NCBI GenBank assembly: GCA_029821755.1
Contig: JALGSV010000012.1
Location: 1 to 64,000, forward strand
From: Candidatus Zipacnadum vermilionense
GTDB lineage: Bacteria; Armatimonadota; Zipacnadia; Zipacnadales; Zipacnadaceae
Reading direction: 5' to 3'
DNA length: 64,000 nucleotides
Positions 2,480-6,307 of this stretch are shown here, piece by piece. Made by a program: the position numbers and the translations under genes. Each line of letters starts with the position of its first letter. Positions within the stretch are counted from its first letter, which is position 1. A model generated the notes under the pieces. The model was given only the letters and a program-made list of their open reading frames with translations, ran no database searches and was not told the origin of the DNA.

Positions 2480-3529
2480 TCAGGCTAGGCTGACGACTTT
2501 CCGTTCCTGCGAGGACTCGTAGATCGCCAGGATCAGCTCTACCGCCCGCCGCGCCTCCTGCCCCTTCATCCGTGGCTCCCGCTTCTGCTCGATGGCCGCC
2601 AGCACATCCCCGATCTGATCCGCATGCGCGTCCACCGCCAGGCCCAGCATCCCCGCCGCCGGCTCCGAGGCTCCACCCTTCAGCCGCCCCGCCGCTGGGT
2701 CGCGGAAGCTCTCCTCCCCCTCCACCTGCCATAGCCCCAGGTCCTCGCCCATGAAGACGATGTTCCCCTGGCTGCCGTGGATCTCCAGCCGCGCCGGGTG
2801 GCCCTCATAGGTCAGCGTCGTCCCCTGCACGACCCCGTGCGCCCCGCTGGTGAACTTAAGGGCCGCCGTGCCGATGTCCTCCACCTCGATGTCATGCGCC
2901 AGGTTGTCGGCAAAGCCGCCGACCTCCGCCACCTGGCCCATCATCCAGATCAGCAGGTCAATGTAGTGGATTGACTGGTTCATCAGCGCCCCGCCGCCGT
3001 CCAGCGCCTTCGTGCCCTGCCAACCCCGGTCGTAGTAGGCATGGCTGCGGAACCACGGCACGGTAGCCGTCCCCCACAACAGCCGCCCTAGCCGGCCCTC
3101 CCGAATCGCCTCCCAGGCCCGCCGGAAGACCGGATAGGAGCGGAGCTGATGTACCGCCGCCAGCTTCACTCCGTTGTCCGCACAGGCGGCGATCAGCGCG
3201 TCTATCTTCTCCAGCGTCACATCTATCGGCTTCGTGGTGATGACATGCTTGCCCGCCTGCGCCGCCTTGATCCCCAGTTCCGCGTGCAGCCCGCTGGGCA
3301 CCACGATATTGACGACGTCTACGTCCTCCCGCTGCAGGAGCGCGGCATAGTCGGTACACGCCTCCACGCCATACTGCGTCGCTTTGGCCTGCGCCCGCTC
3401 GGGCACCGTATCGCACACCGCCAGCAGCCGCGCGTTGGGTAACGACCGGATCGCCTCGATATGCGTGTCGCTGATTACCCCACAGCCGACCACGGCAAAG
3501 CCGTAGGTATTGTCAGTTTGCTCAGCCAT
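2480..3529 (-). CDS. Gfo/Idh/MocA-family oxidoreductase 1
   Basis: 349-residue NAD(P)-dependent sugar/cyclitol dehydrogenase-like protein. The N-terminal Rossmann motif GFAVVGCGVISDTH begins at about residue 9; VVPSGLHAELGIKAAQAGKH and TTKPIDV correspond to the conserved nicotinamide-side EKP region (here TKP). The C-terminal alpha/beta domain contains GGGALMNQSIHYIDLLIWMMG with the conserved histidine pair region. I chose the ATG at 3529 because it follows GAGGGGGTTTCCT, a good ribosome binding site, and starts just before the Rossmann fold; the longer frame upstream is not family-like. It is a lone gene here, one of four paralogues in the window. Substrate cannot be inferred. Confidence 0.9.
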   Translation of the reverse strand: MAEQTDNTYGFAVVGCGVISDTHIEAIRSLPNARLLAVCDTVPERAQAKATQYGVEACTDYAALLQREDVDVVNIVVPSGLHAELGIKAAQAGKHVITTKPIDVTLEKIDALIAACADNGVKLAAVHQLRSYPVFRRAWEAIREGRLGRLLWGTATVPWFRSHAYYDRGWQGTKALDGGGALMNQSIHYIDLLIWMMGQVAEVGGFADNLAHDIEVEDIGTAALKFTSGAHGVVQGTTLTYEGHPARLEIHGSQGNIVFMGEDLGLWQVEGEESFRDPAAGRLKGGASEPAAGMLGLAVDAHADQIGDVLAAIEQKREPRMKGQEARRAVELILAIYESSQERKVVSLA

Positions 3530-3706
3530 AGGAAACCCCCTCAACTCTGCCCTGCACCTGTACTTCTCCAACACCGCCCTACCGGACCACCCCAGAATGC
3601 GCACCAACATCGACATTTCCGACCCCTCCCAGCGCGGGATAAAAACCATTCCCTCCCCACACGGCGGAAACCTCCTGCCTCCTCCGCAACCAAAAAGAAT
3701 AATTGG

Positions 3707-4105: not shown

Positions 4106-6307
4106 ATGCCCCTGTCCGACCGCATCGCCAAGCTCCGCGACTACACCTGGAGCCGCACGGGGGCCTTCTACGAGCGCGACTACCACTTCTCCCTCGGTCG
4201 CCTGCGCCACGCCGACCAGCCCGAGCCCCTGCAGACCGCCCTGGCTTTCGCCCACTTCTGTGAGCACGTCACCGTTAACCTGCGCCCGGAAGAACTGATC
4301 GTCGGCGAGGTCCCCCGCCGCGACGAGCCCCTCCCCCTGGAGTCCTGCGCCCCCCTTGCCAACCTTCCAGTGCATCTGGCTGCCGAAGCTCGTCTCCAGT
4401 CCTGGGAGCGTGCCACCCTCGACGCTCACACCCACATCGCCGGCATCATGACCGGCCACATGCAGATCGACAACGAGCGCGTCCTCACCGAGGGCCTCAC
4501 CGGCCTGCTCGCCGCCGCCCAGCACTACTTGGACGAGACTCCGGCGGAGGATATCGATCGGCGCGCCTTCTATTCGGCCGCGATCATCTCCTTGCGCGCC
4601 GCGATCCGTTTCGCCGAGCGCTACGCTGAGTTCGCTGAGTCCCTGGCGGAACTGGACCCTGCTCACCGCGACGACCTCCTGGAGGTTGCCCGGATTTGCC
4701 GGAAGGTCCCCGCCCAGCCCGCCGAGACCTTCCGCGAGGCGCTCCAGGCCACCTGGTCCATGCACCTGCTGGTCGCTGCTGAGACCAGCGCTGGCCACGG
4801 CTGCTTCTGCCCTGGCCGCGTCGACCGCTTCTGGTGGCCCAGCTACGAGCGCGACCTCGCCGCCGGCCGCCTCACCCGCGAGCAGGCCCTGGAGTTGATC
4901 GAAGCCTTCTTCGTCAAGATGAACGACTGGAACGTCAACGACGCGCCCTCCAATATCATCCTCGGCGGGCAGGACGCCGCGGGCCGCGAGTTCACCAACG
5001 ACCTCACCTACCTGTGCCTGGAGGCCTCCCGCGAGGTCCACATGGTCAACCCCTCCGTGCACCTGGCCGTCAGCGAGAAGACCTCCGACGAGGTCCTGGA
5101 GGCCGCCTGCGACACCCTTCTGCGCGGTGATGGCTACCCGGCGATGTTCAATGACGAGCTGATCCTGGAGGGCCTCGACCGGGCTGGCGTCGCCCGCGAG
5201 GACGCCGTCGAGTACGTCCCTTGCTCTTGCGTGGAGATCACCGTCGGCGGCAAGACCAATGCCTGGGTCGCCTCCGGCTACGTCAACATGGCCAAGCTCC
5301 TAGAGCTGGTTCTGCACGAGGGCACCGACCCGGTGACGGGGATACAGGCTGGCCTGCGCACCCCGCCCCTGGAGCAGCTCAACACCTTCGAGAAGCTCTA
5401 CGACGCCGTCCAGGCCCAGATGCGCTACGTCGTCATGGCCCATCTGTCCCTATACGAGAAGCTCCAGGAGGCGCAGAAGGCCCGCCCCTTCCCCCTGCTC
5501 TCCTGCGTCATCCGCGACTGCCTGGAGCGCGGCCGCAATATCGGCGACGGCGACACCGCCGCCCGCTACGTCTTCACCGAGCCCGAGGCAGTCGGCATGA
5601 CCAACCTCGCTGACGGCCTGGCGGCGATCGAAAAGCTGGTCTACGAGGAACAGCGGCTGACTCTGGGGGAACTGCGCGAGGCGCTCGCCGCCGACTTCGA
5701 GGGGCACGAGCAGCTCCGCCTGATGCTGCTCAACGACGCCCCCAAGTTTGGCAACGACGACGACGACGTGGACCACTTCATGACGGAGCTAACCGACCTC
5801 TGGCACCAGTTGGTGCTTGCGCATCGCTCGGTGCTGCGCGGCAACTACCTCCCCGGCTATCTCGCCTGGATGATGCACGCCGCCCTCGGCGAGCACACCG
5901 GCGCCCTCCCCGACGGCCGCCGGGCGCGCCTGCCGCTGGCCGACTGTATCGGCCCCGCCCAGGGCCGCGATCGCCACGGCCCCACTGCGATAGTCGGCTC
6001 GCTGAGTAAGCTGGACTTGCGCGACGCCCTGGCCGGGGTAGTGCACAACTTCCGCTTCGAGCCGCTCGTCCTCTCCGGGGCGGGCCGCCCCCGCTTCCTC
6101 CAGTTCCTGCGCACCCTCTTTGCCCGCGGCGGCGCCCAGGCTCAGATCAACGTGATATCCCCGGAGATCCTGCGCCAGGCCCAGCGGCACCCCGAGCGCT
6201 ACCGGGACCTGCTAGTCCGCGTCGCCGGCTTCAGCGCCCTCTTCGTCCCCCTGGCTGCCCACGTCCAACAGGAGATCATCGAGCGGACCACCCACGAGGT
6301 GGTCTGA
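4106..6307 (+). CDS. Glycyl radical enzyme, pyruvate formate-lyase/glycerol dehydratase superfamily
   Basis: 733 residues. The ATG at 4106 follows GGGAGG by about ten bases and starts at the normal PFL-domain beginning. The central block FNDELILEGLDRAGV leads to the active-site loop, where the thiyl cysteine is Cys375 in PCSCVE with its partner Glu377; most dehydratase-type members read GCVE, so the Ser before the Cys is unusual. The C-terminal glycyl loop is RVAGFSALF with the radical glycine at about 708, and the protein ends in the usual IIERT-H motif. Known members cleave C-C, C-O, C-N or C-S bonds anaerobically after activation by a radical SAM activase. No activase gene lies in this window. 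Substrate unknown. Confidence 0.9.
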   Translation: MPLSDRIAKLRDYTWSRTGAFYERDYHFSLGRLRHADQPEPLQTALAFAHFCEHVTVNLRPEELIVGEVPRRDEPLPLESCAPLANLPVHLAAEARLQSWERATLDAHTHIAGIMTGHMQIDNERVLTEGLTGLLAAAQHYLDETPAEDIDRRAFYSAAIISLRAAIRFAERYAEFAESLAELDPAHRDDLLEVARICRKVPAQPAETFREALQATWSMHLLVAAETSAGHGCFCPGRVDRFWWPSYERDLAAGRLTREQALELIEAFFVKMNDWNVNDAPSNIILGGQDAAGREFTNDLTYLCLEASREVHMVNPSVHLAVSEKTSDEVLEAACDTLLRGDGYPAMFNDELILEGLDRAGVAREDAVEYVPCSCVEITVGGKTNAWVASGYVNMAKLLELVLHEGTDPVTGIQAGLRTPPLEQLNTFEKLYDAVQAQMRYVVMAHLSLYEKLQEAQKARPFPLLSCVIRDCLERGRNIGDGDTAARYVFTEPEAVGMTNLADGLAAIEKLVYEEQRLTLGELREALAADFEGHEQLRLMLLNDAPKFGNDDDDVDHFMTELTDLWHQLVLAHRSVLRGNYLPGYLAWMMHAALGEHTGALPDGRRARLPLADCIGPAQGRDRHGPTAIVGSLSKLDLRDALAGVVHNFRFEPLVLSGAGRPRFLQFLRTLFARGGAQAQINVISPEILRQAQRHPERYRDLLVRVAGFSALFVPLAAHVQQEIIERTTHEVV

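Follow-up and report, generated by a model that had tools for sequence, protein, structure and literature searches.

We propose that the gene at positions 4106 to 6307 of the window, by which we mean the whole 64,000-base stretch of DNA analysed here, encodes a working, oxygen-sensitive glycyl radical enzyme (GRE) of the carbon-heteroatom eliminase type that belongs to an uncharacterised branch of Armatimonadota proteins and would be activated in trans by a lone activase encoded at C17:87944. Judged from sequence, we give this reading a probability of roughly 0.55. The window is the first part of contig C18 (92,788 bases) in the genome of Candidatus Zipacnadum vermilionense (4.39 Mb in 115 contigs, 95% complete), a member of Zipacnadia, a class of Armatimonadota (PMC10290634).

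The gene starts with an ATG at 4106, a prediction backed by an aligned Met in a 48% identical orthologue (G023), and ends with a stop codon at 6305-6307, giving a product of 733 aa. As in the GRE superfamily, a PFL-like domain (Pfam, 477.7 bits against a cut-off of 24.3) is followed by a C-terminal Gly_radical domain (80 bits, cut-off 22.2), and the product has a central Cys375 and a radical loop, RVAGF with Gly708, that matches the GRE motif RVxG[FWY] (PMC11528403). The preliminary description had reported an intact radical glycine loop and Cys-Val-Glu site, a Ser before the thiyl Cys and a further Cys two positions earlier; it was right on each point, with Gly708, Cys375 and Glu377 all present in the open frame and the Cys loop (PCSCVE) standing in the context EYVPCSCVEIT. 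An AlphaFold model run on four sequences was of poor quality (mean pLDDT 44.6), too low in confidence to show the expected barrel with the Cys and Gly loops inside it. The features of the locus are as follows, with rows counted in an alignment of 60 GRE sequences that includes the 31-row branch and four adjoining SICTE rows described below.

2480 to 3649, reverse strand: Gfo/Idh/MocA gene beside the GRE gene
4106 to 6307, forward strand: GRE gene with PFL-like and Gly_radical domains, from the open reading frame and domain matches
4457 to 4459, forward strand: His118, aligned with His160 of HypD and His164 of glycerol dehydratase (GD); all 30 branch rows with a letter here have His (one further row is partial)
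5222 to 5236, forward strand: Cys loop Cys373-Ser374-Cys375-Val376-Glu377, with Cys375 the presumed thiyl radical site and Glu377 the Glu of CXE
5279 to 5281, forward strand: Tyr392, aligned with Tyr450 of HypD; in 31/31 branch, 4/4 SICTE and 11/25 other rows
5867 to 5869, forward strand: Trp588, a branch marker aligned with Thr645 of HypD; in 31/31 branch, 4/4 SICTE and 2/25 other rows
6215 to 6244, forward strand: radical glycine loop VRVAGFSALF, with the Gly708 codon at 6227-6229; Gly in 60/60 aligned rows

The preliminary description had suggested a new substrate clade, and in family models and two trees the window protein indeed lies outside every characterised clade tested, although PCSCVE failed as the marker of such a clade. 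The protein scored under half the cut-off of every NCBIfam equivalog that it matched: 428 bits against 1100 on the HypD model NF043068, 410 and 366 against 1000 on the sulfopropanediol dehydratase models, 395 against 1050 on CutC, 363 against 1109 on the formate acetyltransferase model PRK09983, 351 against 1100 on indoleacetate decarboxylase and 242 against 1150 on hydroxyphenylacetate decarboxylase. A positive control from the phylum's HypD group, L091, reached 1285 bits on the HypD model. TIGR01774, the formate C-acetyltransferase/glycerol dehydratase subfamily, gave 505.9 bits, below its cut-off of 678.2. Pyruvate formate-lyase (PFL) identity is contradicted by a Cys-Ser-Cys sequence with no adjacent Cys-Cys pair and by 90 bits against 994 on TIGR01255, and the radical site holds Gly708, not the Ala, Ser or Thr of aminoacyl radical enzymes (AAREs). 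The reaction is not fixed by sequence, and a Glu in CXE is not confined to eliminases, so a decarboxylase or other non-eliminating GRE has to be weighed; the two decarboxylase models nevertheless scored below those for HypD, sulfopropanediol dehydratase and CutC, and we regard this alternative as decidedly doubtful.

Among 101 genomes (its own and 100 relatives), clear orthologues of the window protein were found in G001, from the same genus (82% identical, partial), and G023 (48%), and the remaining listed matches were at most 43% identical. When one genome from each of 84,980 species was scanned for two short peptides, a search that can recover only close kin, two relatives came up, and they match G001 and G023 by place and identity. 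When the best three or fewer candidates per genome were scored, at least 51 of the 291 genomes of the phylum matched the window GRE at 1e-110; viral contigs held one partial relative. The record NZ_CP069552.1 (7,964 bases), labelled an E. coli plasmid, has at bases 7-648 a GRE C-terminus that is 44% identical over 29% of the window-protein length and may be a stray contaminant. The 8.3-Mb genome G102 had 29 first-look GRE candidates (3 scored), the most among the rows listed.

We assembled 62 distinct GRE frames by combining the top matches of the window protein with the GREs of its own genome and ten plasmid-borne references (labelled YbiW-, PflD-, diol-dehydratase- and PflB-type among others), so that the Armatimonadota sample, picked by match to the window protein, leans to its kin. 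One tree contained 60 rows, the fragments L100_13140 and L004 being left out, and a slower one 55 rows, with the long or partial rows L112_976, L110_1389, L002_958, L016_3 and L089_7744 also left out; BSS, HPAD, IslA and CutC are absent from the trees and were compared by NCBIfam or PDB scores only. Together with its two orthologues, the window protein formed one group (SH-aLRT 96) within a 31-row branch (92) in the 60-row tree, and the 55-row tree joined the window protein to G023 at 100/97 and supported a 30-row branch at 93/86. Rows of the HypD group and of YbiW, PflD and diol-dehydratase type fell outside the branch in both trees. As to the tree placement that had been suggested as a check, the window protein is, for the groups sampled, not inside any of these characterised sets. 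Four rows with the loop SICTE adjoin the branch with weak support (81/89 in the 55-row tree) and are therefore counted apart from it.

The altered Cys loop proved to be a private variant of a change that runs through the branch. Immediately before the thiyl Cys, the 31 branch rows have Thr (28), Ala (2) or Ser (1) and the four SICTE rows have Ile, so that Gly is replaced in 35 of 35 rows; among the other 25 aligned rows Gly precedes the thiyl Cys in 24 and Cys in one (a PFL), in keeping with the earlier statement that characterised dehydratases usually have GCVE. SCVE in the window protein is thus one form of a branch-wide replacement of Gly by Thr, Ser or Ala. Ser374 is restricted to the window protein, and its orthologues carry PCACVE (G001) and PCACTE (G023), which rules out PCSCVE as a clade marker. 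Two positions before the thiyl Cys, 28 branch rows have Ser, and only the three orthologues share Cys. In the aligned sequences, then, PCxC marks a tiny subclade, and it is the loss of Gly that marks the branch. CXE is present in 31 of 31 branch rows (Cys375-Val-Glu377 in the window protein), and the markers of the branch comprise the non-Gly residue before the thiyl Cys, Tyr392, Trp588, Cys467 and missing loops.

We compared the active-site pocket with that of HypD (6vxc), whose clade comes closest of the characterised groups that the trees contain, using HypD numbering transferred through L091, which aligns to 6vxc over equal spans with no visible gap. Shared with HypD are the PFL-like family, the CXE Cys loop (Cys434 and Glu436), His160 (His118), Tyr450 (Tyr392) and the radical Gly765. 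Tyr450 binds the substrate carboxylate in HypD and Glu436 the substrate hydroxyl, and CXE is described as conserved among GRE eliminases (PMC7077986). Unlike HypD, the window protein has SCVE in place of GCVE, Gly232 for Asp278, Trp588 for Thr645 and a gap at Asp339, and the positions of Arg156, Ser334 and Asp339 lie in stretches missing from the branch. These missing stretches cover about 31 columns after residue 116, 11 after residue 280 and about 17 near residue 78 (the partial branch row L016 is uninformative here), and two loops absent from the 35-row group carry substrate-binding residues in HypD. By score, the best PDB sequences were choline lyase (418 bits), glycerol dehydratase (1r8w, 410 bits) and 1,2-propanediol dehydratase (5i2a, 407 bits). 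The window GRE lines up with 1r8w at its Cys, Glu, His and Gly positions, but Ala389 takes the place of Asp447, a residue with a functional role in GD. Compared with these dehydratases, the loop ahead of the GG strand lacks 11 columns and the N-terminus is shorter as well.

That the window GRE might be a diverged HypD-like enzyme, or a diverged form of some other eliminase already characterised, would fit these closest solved relatives, the retention of Tyr450 and His160, and the branching of HypD-like rows next to other Armatimonadota rows. We nevertheless think this very improbable, given the gulf between its HypD score and that of the phylum's own HypD-group member and the loss of Asp278, Ser334, Asp339 and Thr645, two of them together with the loop that bears them. 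Because none of these four residues nor Asp447 of GD is kept, no known substrate geometry carries over. We read the alignment as suggesting a site of eliminase type whose pocket would be roomier, and a new substrate is plausible.

A pathway drawn from the neighbouring genes was rejected. The best match of the Gfo/Idh/MocA gene lay off the contig of the listed GRE relative in all three relatives searched (G001, G002 and G023). Across 34 clustered GRE loci, in which neighbours were genes of at least 150 aa picked by ORF length, activases occurred in 7 and Gfo/Idh/MocA genes in 5, and no other neighbour family, GREs aside, occurred in more than three. The PMT_2-like gene downstream of the window GRE is of glycosyltransferase type and has a counterpart in the genus mate (48%). 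Genes of the uroporphyrinogen-decarboxylase family adjoin or lie near GREs in the same genome (contig C12; L035 10478-12706) and in G042 (L052 1248-2363).

The absence of an activase from the window, already noted in the preliminary description, extends to the entire 92.8-kb contig C18, where TIGR02494 (GRE activase) had no match at E 0.001. Genome-wide, this model gave two strong matches, both above its cut-off, at C17:87944-88825 (356 bits) and C53:385988-386818 (290 bits), and the next best reached 39 bits. The search for an orphan activase elsewhere in the genome, which had been recommended, thus yielded two distant activases, one of which (C17:87944) stands alone, with no GRE within the surrounding 17 kb, and the other of which adjoins the C-terminal piece of a split GRE. 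By count the genome has five GRE genes. One is seemingly split between the ends of C17 and C53: its C17 portion (234768-236539) reads in two frames, its C-terminal part seems to be C53:386893-387189, beside the activase, and a break in the contig, accompanied by a frameshift or by decay, seems to account for the arrangement. Two others, at C30:6026 (L036 5522-7810) and C12:20407 (L035 7937-10312), have the odd Cys loops CGCGQ (Gln for Glu) and GGCQE, respectively, with no activase within the surrounding 8.6 and 18 kb. In a 67-aa open frame at C53:231110-231229 (L049 ~2611-2730) the glycyl radical domain is reduced to its C-terminal part (RVGGFSARF), and we propose that it is a remnant or a spare-part-like protein. 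Could the window GRE itself be inactive or relict, reached by no activase? No activase adjoins it and only two orthologues were found, yet its frame is open, its catalytic residues are kept, an orthologue with intact motifs (82% identical, partial) occurs in another genome of the genus and activases are present in its own genome; we find this reading very hard to credit.

The lone C17 activase belongs to a lineage of its kind. We called an activase lone when no GRE was seen within 1.5 kb, and built a tree of 58 activases from which the short fragment of G020 (L139) was left out. Eighteen lone activases, including C17:87944 and no paired activase, form a clade at 96/96; all come from the same class, with one row per genome, and three (L126, L132 and L136) have less than 1.5 kb of DNA on one side. 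Within the tree C17:87944 groups at 99/97 with the activase of the genus mate G001, whose genome carries the 82% orthologue. Eight of the 26 lone activases fall outside this clade, among them that of G023, which has no firm place in the tree. The lone or paired label changes 4 times on the tree against 19.2 times in shuffles (0 of 500; the bootstrap had not settled).

It is also conceivable, but in our view unlikely, that the C53:385988 activase, or either of the two, activates the window GRE and that the lone C17 activase serves something else. Both activases are above the cut-off in the same genome, and one activase can serve two GREs, as in E. coli, where PFL-AE activated PFL about as well as TdcE (PMC7476758). 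The C53-type activases, however, form a clade (100/99) with an adjacent GRE in 9 of 10 rows, as a cognate pair would have (the C53 row was set as paired by hand, from the GRE C-terminal piece), and the orthologue genomes G001 and G023 each yield a single activase match that has no GRE in the 1.5 kb on either side.

Separation of GRE and activase recurs among the relatives of the window GRE. GREs of the STCVE type had an activase within 1.5 kb in none of 17 decidable loci (7 were undecidable; at one of the 17, in G124, an activase lies 2.2 kb away behind a second GRE). An activase was adjacent in 4 of 4 STCTE and 4 of 4 SICTE loci (8 of 8), so lone status is not branch-wide. HypD-like loci had an activase within 1.5 kb in two cases and none in three, with two undecidable. 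The orthologue contigs end upstream of the gene, at base 3 in G001 and base 511 in G023, and a lost neighbour is therefore possible there. The STCTE-type GREs with a local activase (L027, L032, L055 and L092) have the radical loop RVGGYLVPF or RIGGYLVPF, with Leu-Val-Pro where most others have Ser-x-x.

The numbers of GREs and activases per genome, all of them metagenome-assembled, also point to sharing. At least 226 GRE matches occurred in 54 of the 101 genomes (best ten or fewer candidates scored per genome) and at least 85 activase matches in 55 (best twenty or fewer, fragments included). Eight of the 101 had 4 to 9 GRE matches against one activase match among the candidates scored, one example being G024 (about 40 contigs, 98% complete), which has 9 GRE matches to 1 activase match; the single activase was lone in seven of the eight, and that of G046 adjoins a GRE. 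When all first-look candidates of nine genomes were scored with the PFL-activase model, high scorers of 117 to 172 bits, followed by nothing over 66.4, numbered one per genome in eight and two in the genome of the window. G027 had a GRE match and no activase match, and G007 and G010 had an activase match and no GRE match.

The gene, its motifs, the branch, the missing local activase and the existence and kinship of the lone activase are read directly from sequence. We infer that the C17 activase serves the window GRE, that the enzyme is active and that it is an eliminase; a shared activase acting in trans is likely. The stand-alone radical SAM activase C17:87944 would generate a radical on Gly708, which would pass to Cys375. 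With Glu377 and His118 holding a hydroxyl of the substrate, the Cys375 thiyl would then abstract a hydrogen from the carbon beside that hydroxyl; the neighbouring carbon would lose water or another leaving group, and Cys375 would return the hydrogen. Tyr392, Trp588 and the missing pocket loops would leave more room in the pocket, which may suit a polar and perhaps carboxylated substrate, for example a sugar acid. Our best guess at the reaction is elimination from a hydroxylated, perhaps carboxylated compound. A broader scheme is possible, though we hold it at somewhat less than even odds: one stand-alone, vertically inherited activase may be a hub for many divergent, unlinked GREs in the class, in place of a dedicated, adjacent activase for each, with the window GRE among its clients, and the branch-wide change in the Cys loop may accompany a new class of substrate.

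The E. coli enzymes PFL and TdcE are close paralogues of each other. Their activation by PFL-AE (PMC7476758) is a small precedent for one activase serving several GREs; unlike that case, a single activase match here faces as many as nine GRE matches in one genome, and the pairing is putative. GREs have been described with dedicated partner activases, typically encoded nearby (PMC11528403). Among the papers listed, titles and opening lines of abstracts in the open-licence literature on Armatimonadota GREs, on shared or orphan activases and on the motifs describe no such arrangement, and the word 'glycyl' does not occur in the main text of the Zipacnadia paper (PMC10290634). The AAREs offer another likeness, as little-explored GRE relatives, mostly from MAGs, that are nearest to eliminases; they swap the radical Gly for Ala, Ser or Thr, whereas the window GRE keeps Gly708 and has an altered Cys loop (PMC11528403). 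If our reading is correct, the combination of many GREs and one lone activase in the class would mean that activation can be shared, and the lone activase would be a ready-made broad activase for orphan GREs. It would also expose an uncharacterised branch of 31 rows, or 35 with the SICTE rows, that has an altered Cys loop and pocket.
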